A stretch of 64,000 nt of DNA, from contig ML014132.1 in assembly GCA_003615045.1 (NCBI GenBank), forward strand, positions 113,152 to 177,151, given 5' to 3'. The DNA comes from Caulochytrium protostelioides. Lineage: Eukaryota > Chytridiomycota > Caulochytriomycetes > Caulochytriales > Caulochytriaceae. Numbering within the stretch: the first letter of the stretch is position 1; each line of letters begins with the position of its first letter. Below are positions 1-11,203 of this stretch, in pieces. Position numbers and translations under genes: made by a program. The notes under the pieces were generated by a model. The model saw only the letters and a list, made by a program, of their open reading frames with translations. It had not been told where the DNA came from and ran no database searches.

Positions 1-1056
1 ATACGCTCTGACGATCCCTGTGTCCTGATACCTGATCCCATCCTCATAGGGCCCGATCATCCGCCATCTTCATTTTCCTTCCTGTGGCCATTCCCCTTTT
101 CTTCATTTTTGAAAATCAGCCATCGCCACGGGTTTCTCGACCCATGGTGATGGCTGATTGTCGAAAATGTCGGCTGAAGGACGTTAGGAACATGGTGCGA
201 TGACCGCTTTGAAGACGATACAGAGAATGAAAGACGGTCCTCTTCCCAGCGGACAGCCCGGCAGGGGCGGCGGATGCTCCAAGGACGAGTAAAGCTTCGA
301 AACGGACATGGATGCGCTTCGTCATCGGATACATAGGTCATGGCGTGACAACGCTCAAGACTGTGCGGCATTCGTCGCGGGTCGCCACAAAAGCACACTT
401 TCCTGCGTTGCTTTTGGTTTCCTTGACGTTCTTAAATTTCACATCGTGGGTTCGCATAGGGGCGATTTCCTTGACGTCTGGGGGATATGTGACTGCCATT
501 TTTCCTTATCCGCTTGGAAAGTTTCTCGTGATGCACTCGCCTCCTAGTGGATACCGTTTGGGGATGCCTCGTGACGACACCATGGAAAATATATGAAATG
601 CCGCCGAAACGCCACCGAGCCCCATAATCCAATACGACTTTCAACGGCCTGAACACTCACATCATTGTATTCTGTTTGATTCTTTTTCAACTATGCGTAG
701 TCAATTCGCCTTTTTGGACTTTCCACACCTCTCGCTCCTAACATTTGTCGACTTCCTACAGACGCGTGGTCCGTTAATCATTTTTTCGACGGACTTCGCC
801 CGTGACGCATCGACGCATGGCCGCGCACTCTCGTATGACCTGTGTGGCGCGTCGAGATCAGCGCTCCAACACTTCATGAATATTGTGCCCCGCTCTCGCT
901 CTTTTCGACGCTTCCACATCCTAACGCAGGGGTCTTCCCCCATGGCGGCTCCACGTCCATATCCATAATCCACTGCTCTCCTGCCGCGTCTCTCCAGCGA
1001 CACGACCGCTTGTGGTGATCGGCGGGACCGGAGCCCCAACCGGCCTCCTGACGGGA
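1..1056. other. intergenic stretch upstream of the zinc-finger gene
   Basis: No gene is supported here. Short open stretches exist on both strands, but none gives a recognisable protein and the base composition is more AT-rich than in the genes. The last few hundred bases presumably carry the promoter and 5' leader of the zinc-finger gene that starts at 1057. I see no clear TATA box. Confidence 0.5.
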
Positions 1057-3924
1057 ATGAATATGGAAAACCTGGCGCCACTCCTCGGAACCTCTGCGCC
1101 GCACGTGACTACGACCATGGAGCAGACTACGCTCCACCGGGACCCCGCGCATGCCCACGCGTTGGGCGGCGTCCACAGCCAGTCGTTCCACGGCCTGCGC
1201 TACCCGGACCCGCAGCACCAGCTCTGGCAGCAGGACCAGCTCCTGCTTCAGTACCTCACCGGCGCCCATCCGACCGCGGGCGGCCAGCACAGCCCGCTGC
1301 CGCTCCACGACGGGGCGACGCCCGCGCTGACGGCCGCGCTGACGCCGGCGACGACGGCTGGCGCGCTGACGCCACTGGCTTCGCTCTTCGGGCACAGCGC
1401 TGACGGAACGCCTCCGGACGGGCAGGTCCATCAGCCGCACCACCTGCGTGAGCGCATCGCGTCGCTCGAGGCCCGAGTGCCCCAGCCGGCCGTCGTCTAT
1501 ACCGTCCAGCAGCATCAGGATTATGATATCAAATTTCATCCACCAATAGACGGCGATGCGCTCCTCGGCCCCGTGGCCGCGAGCGCCTCGCCGTCGCTGG
1601 CCGCCCCTGCGGCCACTGCCACGACCCTCCAGGCGCCGCCGGCGCCGTCCCAGCCGCCGGCCTCGCAGGGGCAGGTCGCCCAAGCCGTCGGCGCCGACCC
1701 GGCCACCACGCTCGGCCAGCTGTTCAGTCATCTCGACATGACGCCGCCGATCGCGATGCTCGAGGGCACGCCACTCCCGCATCAGCACCACCACCACCAC
1801 CATCACCACCATCACCACGGCGCGACGGTCGCCGCTCAGGCTCAGGTGCAGGCGCGCGCTCAGGCGCAGGTTCAGGCCGACACAGCCACGAGCGCGCTGA
1901 ACCAGGCGCTGTTGATGCCGGTGTCCACGGTCGGCAGCGGGCCCGTCGCGCTCCCGTGCGGCGGCGCGAGTGCCAGCCAGACGACGGATGGCCCTCTCCG
2001 TCGCTCGGTCTCGCTCGGTTCTGACGTTGCCCACCGCCACCGGCACGCGCACGCGCCTCACCCGCAGCAGACGTTGAATGCGGCTCTCAAGAATGTGACG
2101 CAGCAAGCGATGGCGGCCGCCACCACGGCCCCCTCGCTGCTGTCCCGCTCCATTGTCGAGGCCGGTCTGGCGCTGGCGGGCGCAAGTCTCTCGAGCGCGT
2201 TGTCGCTGCCGTCGGCGACGCTGCCGACGTTGACACCCGTGTCCACGGCTCCCGTCTCGTTCGGTGGCGCGTCGGCCGGCTCGGCGCTCTTTACCGGCTC
2301 GTCCGTCAGCCCCGCGGCCGGCCAAAGCACCAGCAGCCATGGCGGTCCCATGGTCCCCATCAAGGCCTCGATGCACAGCAGCCCGCCGCTGACGCCGCTC
2401 AGTATGCGTATGACCCAGACGCCGGTCACCATCGCCCACAGCCAGGGCTACAGCCATGGCCACGCGGCCCAGCACGCAGCGCACGGCATGTTTTTGGTTC
2501 CGCCGGATATGATGTACGGCACGGCGCCGTCGCCGACGCCGACGCCGACCCAAGCGACGTCGCCCGCGCTTTCGGCCATTTCGGGCTTCTCGCACTCGCC
2601 GACCTCTGCCTACCCGCCGGCGACCTGCGAGGGGGCGACCCGCTGCGGCGGCCACTTGCAGACGGCCTCGGCTCTGCTCGCGAGCACGATGCCGAGCCAC
2701 ATGCCGAGCCTATCGTTGATGCCGACGATCTCCACGAACGCCGACGCGCTAGACCTGTCCATGTTCCAGTTCCCGAATGCCGTCTCGCCGTCTCAGCAGA
2801 ACGTCACGTTCACCGTGACACCGGCCGCCGGCGAAGCGCCGGTGCTGGCGCCGTCCACGGGCCCGCCGCCCTCGGCCGCGGCTGCGGCGGTCGCGCGCAA
2901 CAAGAATGCGACGATTGCGACGTCGCTGCTGCTTCTGCCGCCGGGCGCCATCGACTTTATGACGCCTGAGCAGGCTGAGGCGACCGTCGAAGCGCTGAAC
3001 CTCGCGACGCCGCGGGTCGCCTCGGCCGTGGCGCGCAAGTCCAAGCGCGACCGCCGTCGCGCCGCGACCTCGCCGACGGGCGGCCATGTCGCCGGCGGCC
3101 GCGGGTCTGGTCACGCCTCGGTGGCGGCGGCGACGACGACGGGGGCGACGACGACGGGGGCGACCGCCGTGGCGTGTCATGCGGCCATCAAGAGCGAGGC
3201 CAGCCAGGATCAGACCTCTGCTGCGGACGCGTCGCTGGTGCCGTCGGCCGCGTCGGCGGCCGAGGAGACGCCGCGCGTGCGCCGCGGCCGCCCGGCCACG
3301 AAGGATCCCGACCAGTGCTACCCGTGCCCCGAGTGCGGCCACGAGTTCTCGCGTCGCTACAACCTGCGCCAGCACATGCAGATCCATACCGAGACGCGCG
3401 CGCGTGAGCACAACTGCACACACTGCCCTCGCACCTACTTCCGTCTCGCGGATCTGCAGCGGCACCTGCGCACGCACACGACGGGTCCGCGGTTCGTGTG
3501 CCCCGGATGTGCGCGCGGGTTCCGCCGCGGGGACGCGCTACGCCGCCATGTCGTGCGGTGCCGCGGCGCGGGGCTGCTGTCGTCGGTCGCGGCGCCGCAT
3601 GCCGGCATGCCGCCGCTCGTCCGCTCGGCATCGATGGGCTTCGCGCACCACGAGCACGCCCATCCCCACGCCCACCATGCCGCGGTGCTTGCCGGCGCCG
3701 GCGCCGGCGGTCTCGACCACCCGGCCTTCCATGACCTTGCTTACGCGATGGCGCGGCCGGCCTCCGCGATGGCGTTCTCCTCGACATCGCGGGCGTCCGT
3801 CTCGTCCGGATCGAGCGAGACAGGCGACGACGACGAGCTCGGCGACGGCAGCGGCAGTGGCAGTGGCAGCGGTTTCGGCATTCTCAGCCACAGCCTGAGC
3901 ACGAGCAGCCGCAGGACCACCTGA
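1057..3924 (+). CDS. C2H2 zinc-finger transcription factor (three fingers)
   Basis: A single-exon protein of 955 aa, probably a nuclear sequence-specific DNA-binding regulator. The first 750 residues are low-complexity Ala/Pro/Thr/Ser with a run of about 12 His near 1784-1818. A basic, AT-hook-like motif (RVRRGRPATK) precedes three adjacent fingers. Finger 1 has C757/C760 with H773/H777, finger 2 has C787/C790 with H803/H807, and finger 3 has C815/C818 with H831 and a final Cys (C835), so it is C2HC. The tail is His/Ala/Gly-rich and ends in Ser/Gly repeats. The open frame continues upstream to a GTG at 1012, but the first ATG is at 1057. An MNM start with further in-frame Met residues makes the exact start slightly uncertain. 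The fingers are clear, but target genes and orthology cannot be read from the sequence. Confidence 0.85.
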   Translation: MNMENLAPLLGTSAPHVTTTMEQTTLHRDPAHAHALGGVHSQSFHGLRYPDPQHQLWQQDQLLLQYLTGAHPTAGGQHSPLPLHDGATPALTAALTPATTAGALTPLASLFGHSADGTPPDGQVHQPHHLRERIASLEARVPQPAVVYTVQQHQDYDIKFHPPIDGDALLGPVAASASPSLAAPAATATTLQAPPAPSQPPASQGQVAQAVGADPATTLGQLFSHLDMTPPIAMLEGTPLPHQHHHHHHHHHHHGATVAAQAQVQARAQAQVQADTATSALNQALLMPVSTVGSGPVALPCGGASASQTTDGPLRRSVSLGSDVAHRHRHAHAPHPQQTLNAALKNVTQQAMAAATTAPSLLSRSIVEAGLALAGASLSSALSLPSATLPTLTPVSTAPVSFGGASAGSALFTGSSVSPAAGQSTSSHGGPMVPIKASMHSSPPLTPLSMRMTQTPVTIAHSQGYSHGHAAQHAAHGMFLVPPDMMYGTAPSPTPTPTQATSPALSAISGFSHSPTSAYPPATCEGATRCGGHLQTASALLASTMPSHMPSLSLMPTISTNADALDLSMFQFPNAVSPSQQNVTFTVTPAAGEAPVLAPSTGPPPSAAAAAVARNKNATIATSLLLLPPGAIDFMTPEQAEATVEALNLATPRVASAVARKSKRDRRRAATSPTGGHVAGGRGSGHASVAAATTTGATTTGATAVACHAAIKSEASQDQTSAADASLVPSAASAAEETPRVRRGRPATKDPDQCYPCPECGHEFSRRYNLRQHMQIHTETRAREHNCTHCPRTYFRLADLQRHLRTHTTGPRFVCPGCARGFRRGDALRRHVVRCRGAGLLSSVAAPHAGMPPLVRSASMGFAHHEHAHPHAHHAAVLAGAGAGGLDHPAFHDLAYAMARPASAMAFSSTSRASVSSGSSETGDDDELGDGSGSGSGSGFGILSHSLSTSSRRTT

Positions 3925-4430
3925 TAACGGCGCGCGGCCTCCGCTCATCCGCGATAAAAGTATCACGGCTCGGGGTTCTGCCTATGGCAGCCTGGGCGCG
4001 TCTCACTTCCCACTCCCAGTTCCCTTTCATTTTCCTACATTTAGCCGGACACTCCTTCCTGCTACTTGATCGTATTTGACCCATATGGGCATGGCAACTA
4101 AACTACAAAAGGGTCCTAACTTGACTTGATCAACACGATGATACATAAACGACGACCGCGACGATGACCATCGAGGCGACCCACCCCTATGACGCTTCCT
4201 TAGCCGTTTAACGACTTTTTCGCCATGCCATCACCTACCCCCTTTTCCCCCACTATTTTTTTAACGAGATCGTCTATGCAGGCCCTTCCTTACCTCACGG
4301 GCATACCGTGCCCTCTGGTGTTGTGCGGATGTGAAGTTTGTTAATTAAGTAGCCGAAAGGCTGCACAGGCGCCTCCCAGGGCTGTCAGTCAACCTGACGA
4401 CGGTGCCGCTCAACTGACGGCCCGGCGCCC
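3925..4430. other. intergenic, 3' flank of the zinc-finger gene
   Basis: No gene is seen. The stretch is AT-rich compared with its neighbours and contains T-rich runs around 4205-4265, plausibly the 3' untranslated and termination region of the zinc-finger gene. It ends at the TATA-like motif ahead of the Fanzor relic. Confidence 0.45.
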
Positions 4431-4438
4431 TATATAAA
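4431..4438 (+). promoter_or_regulatory. TATA-like element upstream of the Fanzor relic
   Basis: TATATAAA lies in otherwise GC-rich DNA, about 170 bases before the first ATG of the decayed nuclease gene. Position and match fit a core promoter for that gene or its element. This is inferred from the motif only. Confidence 0.35.
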
Positions 4439-4557
4439 CCGCGTGTGAGAGGATGATGATGAGCGGATGGATTGTTGGGATTGGCCCATCTTCCGGGCTC
4501 GTATCACAGACCTCATGGCCCCCTTAATTCCGCAGCCCTCGTTAACGCTCATCCCCC

Positions 4558-4583
4558 GTCCCTCCAAATCTCTTTGGAGGGAC
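4558..4583 (+). repeat. perfect 11-bp hairpin before the Fanzor relic
   Basis: GTCCCTCCAAA (4558-4568) and its exact reverse complement (4573-4583) are separated by four bases (TCTC). The hairpin ends 22 bases before the ATG at 4606. In RNA it would form a strong stem-loop in the leader of the decayed nuclease gene. It could be a structural RNA remnant, a translational control element or part of the element's boundary; the sequence does not decide which. Confidence 0.7.
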
Positions 4584-4605
4584 CTCCTGCGCGGTTCTGA
4601 CTAAA

Positions 4606-6416
4606 ATGGCTGACGCCGAGGGCGTCAGCGTCGGCAGCGCCGACACGAGTAGCGACACGAGTAGCGACGTCGATCCGACCGTGCCGAGAAGCTGAAGCGG
4701 CGCGAGGACGAAACGGAGACGGTGGTCAAGGCTGCGCTGCTCAAGTACCTGCAAGGCAAGGACAGACGGCGGGTCCGAGACGCGGGTCCGAGACCTCCGC
4801 GCGCGCGTGGAGGTTTTCTCTCAGCGCTACCACATCGCCAGCATCGCGCTGTCCGGCCTGCTCAAGCGATGCTTCGACGGCGTTGAAGATGTCAGGGATG
4901 CGAAGCTGCCTGACCTGACAAATTTGAACTATCTATCAGTAGCGTATGCTGGGCATCGCGGGCACTAGTAAGCTAGATCCCGACGTGCGCGATTAGTATC
5001 GGGACTTCCCGTTGCTGGCTGCCAGATTGCCCACACAGCGCCACCGCAGAGCACCGGGGGGGCCACCCTGGCGTTCCGCAAGCTGGAAGGCAAGAACTAC
5101 ACGTTCACTGACACCATCGACAGTGACGGGACCAGCGTGTGCGTCCACTTCGAGCGAAAGATGGCCGACGTCGTGCTGATTGTCACGGCGGCCCCCGGAA
5201 TCAAGAACCCGGTGCTCAGCAGCCCCGATCAGACTGAGCAGCCGTCAGCAGGCAGCCCCCCCTCAGATCCCTGGCGGAAAACCTGGATCAGACCGAGCAA
5301 CCCCCGGGAGACGGCGCCCATCAGACCGAACAGCCTCCGGGAGACAGCCCCGATCAGACCAAAAAAACTCTTGGCAAAGAGCCTGGATCAGTACTGCATC
5401 ATCGGCAACGACCCGGGCCGCACCAACATCTTCTATATGGCCATGGTGGGGCCCAAAGGCCATGTCGTCAGCTGGAAGTTGAGTCGAAAGCATTACTATG
5501 TGGAAGCCGGCATGACATCCGCCCAAAAGCAGTCAGAGGCCTGGCAGCGCCACTTGAAATAGCCGCTGCTGCGGCTGTCCGGAGTGTGCTTCAAGGACAC
5601 AGCGCTCGACGTGCACCACCGCCTCCTGGAGGTGTGGCTCGCTACGTACGATCCGCTGTGGGCCGAGTTCCTGAAGCCGCGCTGGGTCTGTACGGTGGCA
5701 AGCAACGCGTGTTTGACAAGTTCATGAACCGCGTCGCCATGGGGGCGACCACGGAGATGAAGCCCGTGGTCGCTGAAGTGGTGATCGCTTATGGCGCCTC
5801 CTAGTTTGCCTCCGGAGGCAAGATTGAGATCTCGGTTCCAACCGCTCGCGCGTACAAGGCGTGCGCCCAGCGCTTCCGCACGGTCCTAGTCGACGAGTTC
5901 CGGACGACCCAGGTGCATGCCGAGACGAACGAGATCCTGACCAAGGTGAAATCCCGGGACCCGACGCAGGTGCCGATCGCTCGCGCGTCCCGGGCGAGCG
6001 TTGCCCAAACCGCGCCTGCGGCCGTGAATCCGGTCCGCATGCGTGGGGCGAGCGCTCGCTCGACGGCGCCGACGCGGGTCAACCCGCCCCGCCGTGCTCG
6101 CGCGGGTGCTTCCGCGGCCGAGCCGACGCCGGCCTCCCCGGCCCGCAAGACCCTGGTTTATGCCCAGATGAATGTGGTCCTGAAACCCGGCGAACGCCGG
6201 CGCCAGGGAACCACGGTTCGTGGCTTGCTATGGTATGAAGCCACCCACGGCAAGTTGGTGAACCGCGACCTCAATGCCGCGATGAACATCCGACGCCGTC
6301 TGGCCTTACCCGCCAGACCGATAGCGCTGTGCAACTCGGGGCAAACCAGGTTGCAGCCCGTGGTCGGCAAAGTCACGCCGAACCGAATGCGGGTCTGCTT
6401 CGGTAGGGACCCCTAG
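4606..6416 (+). pseudogene. decayed Fanzor1-type (TnpB-like) RuvC nuclease gene
   Basis: Fanzors are eukaryotic RNA-guided DNA nucleases related to bacterial TnpB, carried by transposable elements. Conserved pieces appear in order: a Lys/Glu-rich start (about 4683-4765); an N-terminal block ending LPDLTNL (4786-4930); MLGIAGTSK followed by FPLLAARLPT (4943-5040); a segment beginning FRKLEGKNYTF (5074 on); RuvC-I (NDPGRTN, Asp codon 5410); LWAEFLKPR (about 5660); RuvC-II (VDEFRTTQ, Glu codon 5895); and RuvC-III (NRDLNAAMNI, Asp codon 6267). All three catalytic acids survive. The frame is broken by TGA at 4693, a 12-bp direct repeat (4770-4781, 4783-4794) that shifts frame, another shift near 4935, TAG at 4994, a probable large deletion near 5050-5070, TAG at 5560, a shift near 5680 and TAG at 5802. 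The last frame stays open from 5805 to 6416, so part of it may still be translated. No splice-site set restores it. An Ala/Arg-rich insert lies between RuvC-II and RuvC-III, and I see no zinc-binding Cys pairs there. Identification rests on motif recognition. Confidence 0.8.
5227..5362 (+). repeat. 33-bp tandem repeat inside the Fanzor relic
   Basis: Units starting at 5286, 5319 and 5352 are spaced exactly 33 bases apart, with a diverged copy at 5227. Each encodes an 11-residue unit of the type IRPSNPRETAP, so the repeat keeps the frame. It lies just before RuvC-I and makes a proline-rich linker. Confidence 0.7.
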
Positions 6417-6529
6417 GGGGCACCACCGAAGATTGGTGTGCGCATAGGGTCAGAATATGGACGACCGCGTTAAACTCAATATACAGAAAGGATAAAGAAT
6501 GGAAGAAGGGTAAAGGATAAAATGGTAAA

Positions 6530-7008
6530 AGAATCTTTTCATCTTTCAACCCCTGGGAGAGATGAGGACGACCATCCAAAGACACGAAGACTTTTCAGAT
6601 CCATGGATTTGTGGTTCCACGCCCCCTGTGGAGATCGGCCATCGAGATTTTCCCGAGTTGTGGGAGCCATCAGGAATGCGAGGACACCCTTGACCCAGAG
6701 GCCATAGTGACCGTTGTCATTCTCCAGCCTCATCAGCGAGATGATCAGCTTCTGATCAACTCCAGGCACCAGCATAACATCGTTGATGACTAGTTTTTCA
6801 CCCTCGATTCCCCCACGTCTCGTAGGGTGACGGTTCCCACATGGGTTCCGCCTAGTCGTTGACCTCCAGCAGCAAAGACATGGACTAGTTCAGGAAAGGA
6901 GCGCATGTCATCTAGGAGACTGGCGTCGCTGGTCATGTGTCTGGTTGCACCAGTGTCAGTGAGATCACGAGTACATGTGCAACGAGATATCGATAAAAGT
7001 AAATACAT
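6530..7008 (-). mobile_element. Ty1/copia retrotransposon fragment (protease region)
   Basis: Read on the minus strand, 7008-6790 encodes a copia-type aspartic protease core: the active-site motif DTGATRHMTSD, then AAGGQRLGG and a GTVTL strand. After a one-step frameshift near 6790 the homology continues as VINDVMLVPGVDQKLI and LMRLENDNGHYGLWVKG, which match the stretch joining protease to the integrase zinc region in copia Pol proteins. Matches fade before 6600, where SLRVFG resembles a motif near the end of copia integrase and may mark an internal deletion. No LTR, reverse transcriptase or RNase H is visible. It is a dead fragment whose edge lies about 30 bases beyond the stop of the CSC1-like gene. 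Confidence 0.75.
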
Positions 7009-7039: not shown

Positions 7040-10000
7040 TTAGGTGTTTAACGAGTCGGCCTGCCACTCCGAAAGAGCCTGGCTTTCGATCTGAACGCTG
7101 CGGCCGTCTGGCGGGATCCAGGCGCCGCCGACCTGCACATCGAGCGCTGTCCCAACTTCTCGAATCACGTCCTTCACCGCTCCATACGCGTCTAGCGGTA
7201 GCCACAAACTGAGCACGCCCTGGCGCAGGCACGGATGACCAAAAAGCTCGCGCCACTCGCGCGTCTCGTTGCCGCCCTCACCTGCGCGGTAGTGGCGCGC
7301 GAGCGTGCTGTCGGCCAGCGCGTACCGCGAGGCGGTGATGAACTCACGGCCGACACCGTTTAAGCTCGCTTCGGAGGCGGCACCCGCGAGGGGGCCGGCG
7401 CTGCCGTCCGTGCGGCCACTCGCGGGCGCGCTGTCGGGCCCGTGGCGCAGCAGCCCGATGTCGGTGCCGCCGCCGGCGCTCGCGAGCGGATCGGCCGTGG
7501 GCGCGGCGCTGAGGGCGCTAATGGGCGCTGTGGCCAGCGGCCGCACTAGCACCGGCGATGCGGAGACAGGGGGCCGGCGGGCGATGTCGGAGGCGACCCA
7601 CAAGCGACTCGTGGGGGTCATGACGCCCGGCGTCACGGGGAGGTCGGCGTCGGCGTCGGCATCGACGTGGTTCGCGTCCGCGGATGGAGCGCTCGGGTAG
7701 CCCCGCCGGACAAAGGAAGTCGTCGCGTGCGCGTGGCCCGGGAGCTCGAGATACGGCAGGACGGAGGGCGAGACGGCGACGGCAATGCATGCGTCCGGGG
7801 CGTCGGCGCTGGCCTCGGCGCGGTGCGCCGCGGCGTAGCCGCTGTAGCGGCCCGACGGGGAGGGCACGGGCGCCGTGCCCGGCATCATGATGTCGTTCTG
7901 GCGCTGCGTCGAGGACGCGCGCGGGCGCCGCTGGACCATCCCGACGGTGCCGCAGGCGTTGGTGGTGTGTGAGCGCGAGCGCGACGGAGAGCCCCCGGGC
8001 GTTACGGACCGCAGTAGCGACGTCTCGATGAGGAGCTCCCGCGGGCCGTCAATGGAGACGGTATTGCGGATCGCTTCGCGCGGGTCTTCGTAGGCCGAGG
8101 CGACCTCGATACCGCTGGACGAAGCGGCCAGCTCGGTGGTCGACTTGGGCGGCATGAGCGAGACGGAGAGCGGCGCGGGCGCGATGCCATGCGAAGCGAT
8201 GGCGGAGCTGGCGCCCGCCGCGGGCCCCGGCGATGGGACGGCCATGACGTTGGCGGTCACGGCGTGTGCGGGGACGATGGCGTCCATGGGGGCGTCCGTG
8301 ATGGCGGTCTGGGCAGTCTGGGCGAGCTGCATCGCGACGTGTTCGGCGTCACGGATGCGTTTGTGGGCCTGGTCAATGACCGCTTGGGCGGGCACGCCCA
8401 TCATCAAGGCAGCGGAGTGACCCGAGTAGATCTGAACCATGGCGGTGATAAAGATCAAAAAGAGCAGAAACCCTGCGGGCGCGTACGACTTCTTGAGCAG
8501 AAAATAGCCGCTGAGCACGATCTGGTGGAGATAAAGGCCCGTGAACATCTGTCGGGAGGCGGTAAAGAGAAAGTTGCCGCCGCTCTGTGTCGGGAAGCTG
8601 TAGACGTACATAAAGTTGTAGCGGTAGATCACGACCCAGACGCTAAAGTAGACGGCAACGAAGAGCAGAATCAGGGGCGCGATGTCGGCGTACACAAGGC
8701 CGATTGTGGCAATGAGGCTGTGCTTGGCCAGCGCTTGGCCGGCCGCGAAGCGGGGTGGGCGCATCCCGTCGCGGGTGACGCGCGGGGAGGGGTTGCGCCA
8801 GAAGAAGGACCCGAGGTGTGTGAGGATATCAAACGGCCGGATGAGCTCGAGGCCGCCCATGATGCAGGTCTGGAACAGGACGTAGTTGATAAAGAATGTC
8901 GAGACAGGAGGCGCCGACTTGGCGAGGGTGTCGAGGATATTGGCCGGGTTGAGCCCCCAGGACTCGAGGTTCGAGAGTGTGGATCCGGCAATGACACCGA
9001 CGAGCAACACGTTGATGATGAGGAAGGCGTAGTAAATTTGAATTAGGCTGCGCTCGACACTGAGCCACGTGGGGTGGCCGGCGAGCACGAGCAGGTAGCG
9101 GAGGCAGATGGGCAGGATGGCCGTCAGGATCGACATGGCGAGCGACGGGATCAGGCCCTGGATGAGGCCCGTGATGCTGTCGTCCATGGAGGTGAGTGGC
9201 TTCAGCGCCGACGAAATCTGGTCGAGGTTCTGGATCTGGGCGACGGAGTTGATCGCTGTGGAGAGTACGCTCCAGAAGACGATGACGACGCCCGAGGCGA
9301 GCAGGAACAGGACCCACCGCATGCGGCGCTCCATCACGTTCAGGCGCAGGTTCTGCCAGTAAATATCGCGTGGATCGACGCCAATGTAGCGCTCCTGCAT
9401 GATGCCCGGCGTGTGGTGCAGATTGGCCATGACGGCGATGTGCGGGCTGACAAGGTTGTTGAAGACGACAAAGACCGAGTTGAACGACCGCTTGCGCCAG
9501 CGCAAGTACCATGACCGCTTCGGTCGCGACCGCAGCGCCCGCGCCTCGCTGAGCCGCTCTTCCTGGACGCGGCCGATCTCGTCGTTGAGCAGCGCAATCG
9601 CGCTGATCAGCTGCCGGATCTGGCTCAGCTGCTTGGGCGACCACATGCCCGAGGCCGTCATGGGACGCCCTGGCGGATCGCTCTCGGACGGTCGCGCCAC
9701 CACCGCCGCCGCCGCCGCCGACGCCGAGGGCTGCCGCGAGATCCGCTGCGAGAGACTGCGAACGACGGACGGCGAGGGCGGCCGCGACGCGGGGCGATCG
9801 GGGCGGTGGGGGAGCATGGGCGACGATGCGTCGATGCCCGTCATGTCGCCGGCATGCACGCCCGCGGTGTCGGCCACGGCGTTGCCCTCGCCATCCAACT
9901 CGCCGTTGTAGCCCCGTTGTTGTTCCGCGGCCGCCTGCGGCGCGCTTTCGGCAGCCGCGAGGGCCCGGGGCGGCGGGTCCAGGGTCAGCTGCAGGAGATG

Positions 10001-11203
10001 CACGTGGCTAATACTCGATGGCACCGCGGGTGCGGCGCGAGCGAGCGTGTGCGGGATATAGTGCCGCGAACGGCCGGACCGCCGCGACGGCAGGGTCTCA
10101 TGGCCTTTCCAGTCCTGCCGGCCGGCCAGACCGCCACCCTCGGCATCCCCACGGGCAGCGGCGGCGGTGTCCGCGGCGCGGGCATCGGCTTCCGGATAGG
10201 CTGCGGCCGCGTGGCCCCCGCGGACGACGAAGGCCGGGAGGTGGAGCTGGGCGCCGAGCCGGGCCCACCCCGTCAACGCGGCGTTCTGCTCGCGACACAG
10301 CTCGGCCCAGCGGGCGCGGCTGATTGACTGGAGGATCTCGGTGGCGACGCGCTCGAGCCGGTTGCGCGTGGCGCAGCGGCGGTCCCAGAGCTCGGGTAGG
10401 TTGCGGAGATAGTCGGAGATCACGATGCCATGAATCGAGTCGGGCTGGACGACTTCAAATAGGTCGCGGAGATGCTCGGGCGTGCGTATGGATTTGGGGA
10501 CATCGCGCACGAGGAGCGAGTATCCGGAAAGACGATCGCGCTGCTCCTGGCTCAGTAGAAAGGTATGCCGAAGGCAGAGTGCGCGCTGGAACAGGCGGTG
10601 CAGACAGGCGAGGAACGCCAGCGTGCCAACGTAGCTAAAGACGACAATGATCCAGTAGCGATGGGTATTGCTGACATTCGTGATGGTCAGGGCATCCAGG
10701 CCAAAGAGCGCCTGCCCACCGGTGATGTTGGTCGGCACCAGCGCGGTGAGGGCGGCGAGGAACGTGAAACAAAAATAGTAGGACATCCAGCGCATGATAT
10801 AGATGACGGAGAAAGCGTCCGGGCCGATGCGTTGAAGCACAACCTCATCGCTGACGCGCATCACGGTGACAATCCAGACAAAGGGGTTCCACGATGCGCG
10901 GATGACGGGCGACCGCTGGCGCTCGGGCAGCAGGAACGTGCGCGGTTGGTAGGCCGTGCGCAACCACTGGGACTTGCCGCGCGCCAGCAGGCTGAACACG
11001 AGCAGCAGCACGCAGAACCCGCAGACGTTGAAGACGAGCGACCATTCGAACGAGCGCAGAATCACGTGGGCGTCCGTATCAGGGTCGACCACCGACGATG
11101 CCGATGGCGACGCTGACGCTGACGATGCGGTGCGCGATGCCGTCAACGTGGCGGCCACACCCGCGACCCCGGCGGCTGTCGCCGTCGCCGTCGCCGAGTC
11201 CAT
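7040..11203 (-). CDS. CSC1/OSCA-like (DUF221, TMEM63 family) membrane channel
   Basis: A protein of 1,387 aa in a single exon, starting at the ATG at 11203. The family forms calcium-permeable, osmo- and mechanosensitive channels. Visible parts are a short Ser/Ala N-terminus; TM0 (about 55-73); two helices (about 137-157 and 184-204), the late-exocytosis region; and a cytoplasmic domain containing GYSLLVRDVPKSIRTPEHLR. The cytoplasmic domain is split by a low-complexity insert (about 330-560). Then comes the main multi-helix channel domain, including the stretch VFNNLVSPHIAVMANLHHTP and a helix run ending YSGHSAALMMG. A long disordered tail follows, ending in a conserved block (REWRELFGHPCLRQGVLSLW) like the C-terminal domain of fungal PHM7/RSN1 proteins. 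It is longer than the usual 800-1,000 aa because of the insert and tail. Location is probably plasma membrane or endomembrane. Confidence 0.9.
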   Translation of the reverse strand: MDSATATATAAGVAGVAATLTASRTASSASASPSASSVVDPDTDAHVILRSFEWSLVFNVCGFCVLLLVFSLLARGKSQWLRTAYQPRTFLLPERQRSPVIRASWNPFVWIVTVMRVSDEVVLQRIGPDAFSVIYIMRWMSYYFCFTFLAALTALVPTNITGGQALFGLDALTITNVSNTHRYWIIVVFSYVGTLAFLACLHRLFQRALCLRHTFLLSQEQRDRLSGYSLLVRDVPKSIRTPEHLRDLFEVVQPDSIHGIVISDYLRNLPELWDRRCATRNRLERVATEILQSISRARWAELCREQNAALTGWARLGAQLHLPAFVVRGGHAAAAYPEADARAADTAAAARGDAEGGGLAGRQDWKGHETLPSRRSGRSRHYIPHTLARAAPAVPSSISHVHLLQLTLDPPPRALAAAESAPQAAAEQQRGYNGELDGEGNAVADTAGVHAGDMTGIDASSPMLPHRPDRPASRPPSPSVVRSLSQRISRQPSASAAAAAVVARPSESDPPGRPMTASGMWSPKQLSQIRQLISAIALLNDEIGRVQEERLSEARALRSRPKRSWYLRWRKRSFNSVFVVFNNLVSPHIAVMANLHHTPGIMQERYIGVDPRDIYWQNLRLNVMERRMRWVLFLLASGVVIVFWSVLSTAINSVAQIQNLDQISSALKPLTSMDDSITGLIQGLIPSLAMSILTAILPICLRYLLVLAGHPTWLSVERSLIQIYYAFLIINVLLVGVIAGSTLSNLESWGLNPANILDTLAKSAPPVSTFFINYVLFQTCIMGGLELIRPFDILTHLGSFFWRNPSPRVTRDGMRPPRFAAGQALAKHSLIATIGLVYADIAPLILLFVAVYFSVWVVIYRYNFMYVYSFPTQSGGNFLFTASRQMFTGLYLHQIVLSGYFLLKKSYAPAGFLLFLIFITAMVQIYSGHSAALMMGVPAQAVIDQAHKRIRDAEHVAMQLAQTAQTAITDAPMDAIVPAHAVTANVMAVPSPGPAAGASSAIASHGIAPAPLSVSLMPPKSTTELAASSSGIEVASAYEDPREAIRNTVSIDGPRELLIETSLLRSVTPGGSPSRSRSHTTNACGTVGMVQRRPRASSTQRQNDIMMPGTAPVPSPSGRYSGYAAAHRAEASADAPDACIAVAVSPSVLPYLELPGHAHATTSFVRRGYPSAPSADANHVDADADADLPVTPGVMTPTSRLWVASDIARRPPVSASPVLVRPLATAPISALSAAPTADPLASAGGGTDIGLLRHGPDSAPASGRTDGSAGPLAGAASEASLNGVGREFITASRYALADSTLARHYRAGEGGNETREWRELFGHPCLRQGVLSLWLPLDAYGAVKDVIREVGTALDVQVGGAWIPPDGRSVQIESQALSEWQADSLNT

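Follow-up and report, generated by a model that had tools for sequence, protein, structure and literature searches.

Do the open stretches scattered over positions 4606-6416 of a 64,000-nucleotide stretch of the Caulochytrium protostelioides genome (hereafter the window; assembly GCA_003615045.1, contig ML014132.1, positions 113,152 to 177,151) add up to one gene, and how long has that gene been dead? An original prediction, made from the sequence alone, had read them as the relic of a Fanzor1 RNA-guided nuclease that was inactivated recently and might survive intact elsewhere in the genome. Our analysis makes it highly probable that window 4381-6482 holds a defunct copy, with an internal deletion, of a transposable element that occurs many times in C. 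protostelioides and carried a Fanzor1-type gene. The gene belongs to a clade without the four-cysteine (C4) zinc finger and with the catalytic Asp-Glu-Asp (D-E-D) triad, and the ancestral element would have had a structured RNA at its 3' end. All features of the element given below lie on the plus strand.

Pieces of one Fanzor1-type gene

As reference for the window alignments we used P0001, an environmental protein of 625 amino acids that came from a homology search. Single pairwise comparisons matched it to the window pieces at 4783-4965, 5035-5292, 5347-5559 and 5805-6413 with expectation (E) values of 9e-21, 5e-13, 8e-22 and 7e-19, respectively, which is far above chance, and a frameshift-tolerant alignment covered P0001 residues 16-621 with 58% identity over 424 codons. 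Together with the profile of relatives described below, these results bear out the proposed identity: window 4606-6416 consists of pieces of one Fanzor1-type gene spread over several frames.

Translation of the window located every named block where it had been predicted. An ATG is present at the gene start (4606-4608) and was probably the original start codon, its context ATGGC(T/A)GACGCCGAG recurring in the copies L064 and L044; upstream, at 4431-4438, a promoter-like TATATAAA may have served these copies too, being found by eye in both (on contigs C315 and C197, respectively). The N-terminal block with LPDLTNL (4783-4965) corresponds to P0001 residues ~51-102, and a block with a DSDGTS motif (5059-5210, residues ~311-356) precedes RuvC-I. 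The RuvC-I block at 5389-5559 contains DPGRTN with the catalytic Asp codon at 5410-5412, and is followed by YGGKQRVF...VVAEVVIAYGAS (5685-5801), the RuvC-II block VDEFRTTQVHAETNEIL (5805-5957), in which DEFRTT holds the catalytic Glu codon at 5895-5897, and the RuvC-III block RGLLWYEATHGKLVNRDLNAAMNI (6213-6371), in which NRDLNAAMNI holds the catalytic Asp codon at 6267-6269 and no CxxC occurs. Thus, in the alignment to P0001 all three catalytic codons are still present, as had been claimed. The frame 5805-6416 runs uninterrupted to the stop codon of the gene at 6414-6416. Between RuvC-II and RuvC-III the C. protostelioides family carries an insertion of ~81 codons (5958-6197, edges approximate) that is not found in six aligned environmental relatives. 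A second family insertion, of ~53 codons with repeated DQTEQP-like units, was noticed before RuvC-I (~5220-5380), and the aligned environmental relatives are without it.

Four stops, several frameshifts and a deletion near 5050-5070 had been held responsible for the death of the gene. Three of the stops, all TAG, lie in the homologous frame of the P0001 alignment (4994-4996, 5560-5562 and 5802-5804), the last being common to a copy at 17-18 kb of contig C22 in the copy alignment. The fourth, TGA 4693, does not count as an in-frame stop: it sits in the frame of the ATG, and the homologous frame there differs. Four frameshifts were found in the same alignment, and one more change of frame probably lies between the ATG and ~4665. 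The suspected deletion proved real. Six copies that span both sides hold about 310-520 bp between window positions 5046 and 5057, and therefore the window copy is internally deleted at 5046-5057, where ~500 bp encoding most of P0001 residues 140-310 are gone (166 residues in this range have no counterpart in the window alignment). Five of the six spanning copies were translated, and all five, one of them shortened, encode the stretch that the window is missing.

The assignment to Fanzor1 depended on relatives of the window gene, of which three homology searches returned at least 105; two of these searches scored 8000 candidates each, and the counts given here are those of the proteins returned rather than of all Fanzor1 proteins. 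Ninety-six relatives were kept, P0003 and eight proteins shorter than 500 amino acids being left out. In the Protein Data Bank (PDB), single window pieces retrieved nothing and a piece from contig C37 retrieved one chance match; only profiles of relatives gave matches. The relatives' profile found all three solved Fanzor1 proteins (PpFz1, 1.9e-18; SpuFz1, 1.4e-12; GtFz1, 6.6e-5), and the same three were the best matches to the predicted fold of P0001, whereas Cas12 effectors such as Cas12j (CasPhi), and TnpB, matched that fold far more weakly. Domain libraries were less informative: Pfam left five of six window pieces without a match and gave the sixth a TNB match at E = 8e-4, which is short of the gathering cut-off, and Pfam/NCBIfam scans of window pieces and relatives yielded only sub-threshold TNB/TnpB matches plus chance matches. 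Searching the genome for the TNB family gave no match, though the same search was positive in 6 of 14 control genomes. Many relatives (P0004, P0007, P0009 and others) carry the precomputed Pfam accession PF26935, cited here by accession only. Pattern scans confirmed none of 33 stretches in IMG/VR and none of 585 in prokaryote genomes.

The Fanzor fingerprint, in the part of PMC10711439 that sets it out, comprises DPG at RuvC-I, a Glu placed six residues ahead of the zinc-finger position and the RuvC D-E-D triad. The window has DPGRTN at 5410 and E-FRTTQV-H, with His at the position of the first cysteine; its catalytic residues follow the D-E-D order (5410, 5895, 6267), as do those of 94 of the 96 relatives, the other two ending before the third site. 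Two points count against this assignment. The protein modelled was the environmental relative P0001 rather than the window copy, and neither the family nor the clade has the C4 zinc finger that belongs to the 2013 Fanzor motif, where it is called strictly conserved in the relevant passages of PMC3627910; those of PMC10711439 say that many Fanzors contain it. Therefore, with the fingerprint, profile and fold in agreement and the C4 of the 2013 motif absent, we file the clade as a probable Fanzor1-type variant, which is not a member under the 2013 motif.

A large family of decayed copies

The C. protostelioides genome (20.9 Mb in 337 contigs) was searched with the 5805-6416 frame, and at least 204 matching places were found at E up to 10, with the best 150 of 964 candidates scored. 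We used 134 match rows on 105 contigs and left out ~15 further listed rows; a few of the 134 possibly represent one locus at two contig ends, L002 and L003, for example, having 515 identical bases in common. An N-terminal piece of another copy gave 117 matches at E up to 1. The family thus comprises roughly a hundred copies or more, mostly 75-87% identical to the window in DNA sequence. The right end, ...GTTAAACTCAATAT at window 6482, is sharp and common to copies, several aligned copies having other or decayed ends. The left edge is fuzzy: 4381 is merely where similarity to L064 on C315 begins, and left ends, approximate because placed by similarity, vary among the 11 copies examined. It is these dispersed copies with a common right end that place the gene in a eukaryotic transposable element. 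Around the same 11 copies, the best direct repeats were 3-6 nucleotides with none longer, which is not convincing as target duplication, and a search of 64 loci for the 3' end in inverted orientation matched only the 3' ends themselves.

Is any copy intact, and did the window copy die recently? Recent death had been deduced from the surviving triad, and this was not borne out. We aligned 42 copies with the window, 43 rows in all, and masked badly aligned positions. Of 102 catalytic codons, 91 were retained; for 20 further residues that do not vary in 36 relatives, the figure was 482 of 558. The triad is kept no better than these and is therefore no sign of recent death. It was complete in 14 of the 21 rows covering all three sites. 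Divergence from the nearest neighbour was about 5-19% in 41 rows, and the remaining two are identical to each other. The nearest copy to the window, at 17-18 kb of C22, lies on the same contig (95.2% identity over 980 bases) and has in common with it not only the stop at 5802 but also the frameshift near 5687; these lesions are therefore older than the split or else were spread by conversion. Every one of the 24 rows with at least 300 aligned codons, the window included, has 2-11 stops or frameshifts, counts that may include flanking sequence in some rows (e.g. L061). A single row among the 43 is free of lesions and is 85 codons long; L002, aligned to P0001 outside this set, runs for 116 codons without one.

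An intact full-length frame would top a genome search with P0001. This search gave 93 matches (best 70 of 1209 candidates scored), none spanning the protein, and the best covered 365 residues with one stop; none intact was therefore found. Uninterrupted relatives exist outside this genome, among environmental sequences and algae. A 526-codon open frame on C37 looked intact and was rejected, its first part not being Fanzor and the element part beginning only near RuvC-I. In the RuvC-II block, differences among copies were fewer at second codon positions (0.116 vs 0.210 and 0.191), more weakly so elsewhere; we did not use this as proof of selection. Nothing sets the window copy apart within this large relic family: it is thoroughly dead, and the family itself expanded in this genome and then apparently went extinct.

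The stops and frame changes could also be introns or assembly errors in a gene that works as a spliced Fanzor1. By eye, a GT...AG-like stretch does run across the stop at 4994, and introns are described for Chlamydomonas Fanzor1 genes in the corresponding part of PMC3627910. However, the residues absent at 5046-5057 have no sequence remaining there, the stops at 5560 and 5802 fall directly between coding blocks, and the other copies carry different stops and shifts; we regard a working spliced gene as highly improbable. Slightly less improbable, yet still very unlikely, is a scenario close to the original prediction, with a recent death of the window copy and with other copies in the genome still intact and active. 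It accords with the retained D-E-D codons and the open 5805-6416 frame, and in an assembly of 337 contigs an intact copy could sit in a gap. Against it stand the equal retention of other invariant residues, the two lesions held in common with the nearest copy, and the failure of three queries to recover a full-length open frame (best 150 of 964 and best 70 of 1209 candidates scored in two of them).

A separate observation concerns the window and its nearest copy. Window 5805-6212 and C22:17230-17637 (L007, L032) encode ~99% identical protein over 136 amino acids, while identity is 87% over a longer DNA stretch, which suggests mosaicism or conversion; the two copies, both dead, lie ~100 kb apart.

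The missing zinc ribbon

At the two halves of the zinc ribbon, the family reads VDEFRTTQVHAETNEIL and RGLLWYEAT...KLVNRDLNAA, and in the window the first two ligand positions (C1 and C2) are His and Thr. We compared 44 distinct loci, window included. The first half was readable in 35, none of which has a cysteine at C1 or C2 (one is gapped there), and the second in 37, with a single cysteine in one (L063) and a pair in none. SpuFz1, PpFz1 and GtFz1, aligned with the relatives' profile, have cysteine pairs at both halves. Of the 96 relatives, 93 have two or fewer of the four cysteines, including proteins named in the database from Chlamydomonas euryale (P0075) and Chlamydomonas sp. UWO 241 (P0088). 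All four are present in P0057 and in P0091, the latter named from Marseillevirus LCMAC101, and three, as aligned, in P0105. In a tree built from the relatives without the solved Fanzor1 sequences, the split of the 93 from the other three received a FastTree support of 0.999 and an ultrafast bootstrap of 93, and the order among P0057, P0091 and P0105 was weakly supported (0.529 for the next split). A single loss of the ribbon presupposes a root on the C4 side, a placement that the solved proteins favour.

We lean, with some reserve, towards the view that a large, widespread clade lost the zinc ribbon of TNB once, after splitting from C4-bearing relatives including the marseillevirus protein, and still cuts DNA under RNA guidance in the absence of zinc; the Caulochytrium family would be its chytrid branch, which was amplified and then died, leaving more than 100 relics. 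That the ligands were lost only in Caulochytrium, through decay, is hardly credible: all aligned genome copies of at least 300 codons are indeed broken, but uninterrupted environmental relatives of 593-648 amino acids lack the same cysteine pairs, as do the 93 of 96 relatives, Chlamydomonas included. The clade might instead still bind a metal through different residues, His-Asp-Cys-Asn being the most frequent combination at the four positions (10 of 59). Ligand positions vary widely within the clade, unlike what is expected of metal ligands, the first through H, D, Y, F, S, N and C and the third through C, N, Y and S; a substituted site is in our judgement unlikely, if less so than loss by decay.

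The 93 long proteins without the ribbon suggest that the lineage can do without it, and that zinc is not needed to form the TNB surface; in the part of PMC11423790 concerned, stem loop 1 of the guide RNA is described as binding the RuvC/TNB surface. Searches keyed on the zinc ribbon would appear to miss members of the clade: an expression published for finding Fanzor-related TnpBs requires CxxC...CxxC (as given in PMC10711439), and a C4 zinc ribbon is part of the strictly conserved Fanzor/TnpB signature (as stated in the section on it in PMC3627910). In the open-licence literature we found no report of a zinc-free Fanzor1 clade, and such proteins seem to be new as far as our searches reached. 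The relic genome also offers a natural setting in which to ask if such elements can persist once the nuclease is gone.

The 3' end and known systems

A hairpin at 6387-6445 overlaps the end of the reading frame and is a candidate guide-RNA scaffold. In the window it folds at -28 kcal/mol (z = -2.1); over 31 copies the mean z was -1.58, with 11 below -2. Copies matching short of the end, and L055, had been dropped from the 3' alignment beforehand. In a structure drawn by hand, 93% of the cells of the inner helix pair, and one of its pairs is U-A in 12, C-G in 10 and U-G in 5 copies. On five measures, 14, 7, 3, 203 and 6 of 500 shuffles reached the observed values. Several results weigh against a conserved structure. 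The one counted was drawn after viewing the sequences. Of the 31 copies, 20 fall short of z = -2, with z zero or positive in two, and a folding of six sequences had one at +0.21. For the outer helix the share of paired cells is only 67%, and the 203 shuffles concern the number of further pair types. A structure slid by +2 equals the drawn one on cells with both-sided changes (13) and exceeds it in pairs with both-sided changes (5 vs 4) and pair types (12 vs 10), though pairing cells fall to 55% in it vs 81% in the drawn one. RNAalifold on an automatic alignment of 31 sequences returned 2 pairs only. Rfam gave two matches, both below the gathering cut-off. Taken together, these results lend moderate support to a structured 3' RNA.

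From these data and by analogy, a course of events can be proposed. The ancestral element would have encoded a RuvC nuclease of ~625 amino acids, or ~750 with the two family insertions. Its 3' terminus would have been a structured RNA, likely the omegaRNA scaffold, with host DNA just past the element end acting as the guide; for SpuFz1, the relevant part of PMC10432273 describes a guide RNA from the 3' end with a 14-15 nucleotide variable flank. If it worked as SpuFz1 and TnpB do, the enzyme would cut matching sites beside a short motif, and cutting may have aided persistence or spread of the element, which was possibly mobilised by a one-ended mechanism. A Helitron domain search of the genome gave no match, and it was silent in all 14 control genomes too.

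Several neighbouring features were noted. Directly past the 3' end of the element, at ~6560-6990 on the minus strand, lies a relic with DTGATRHMTSDASLLDDMRSFPELV..., then VINDVMLVPGVDQKLIISLM, which we take to resemble the protease region of a copia-type retrotransposon. The Fanzor relic is flanked by two long open frames, one at 1012-3924 (plus strand), presumably for a C2H2 zinc-finger protein, and one at 7040-11203 (minus strand), which we assume to encode a CSC1/TMEM63-type membrane protein. Elsewhere, on contig C6, the annotated gene CXG81DRAFT_23488 (P0003, 554 amino acids) begins with a Fanzor fragment and continues with a part that does not align with relatives; it may be a chimeric gene or a gene-model artefact.

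Compared with known systems, the family differs from SpuFz1 of Spizellomyces punctatus (PDB 8gkh), which has a C4 zinc finger, and from PpFz1 of Parasitella parasitica (PDB 9cf0) and GtFz1 of Guillardia theta (PDB 9cer), which have cysteine pairs at the C4 positions. The Spu-1 element of SpuFz1 has terminal inverted repeats, whereas none were found here, and 19 full-length genes are reported for S. punctatus, whereas none intact was found in C. protostelioides. On the other hand, the Chlamydomonas elements CRe-1, 2 and 3, non-autonomous Helitrons in the account given in PMC3627910, resemble the family in their many copies, 5' truncation, internal deletions and retained 3' ends, although the Helitron ends and 7-19 bp duplications reported there have no counterpart demonstrated in the family. 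CMe-1A of Cyanidioschyzon, whose host is a red alga rather than a chytrid, is likewise described in that account as having ~150 copies, ~80% identical to the consensus and without terminal inverted repeats.
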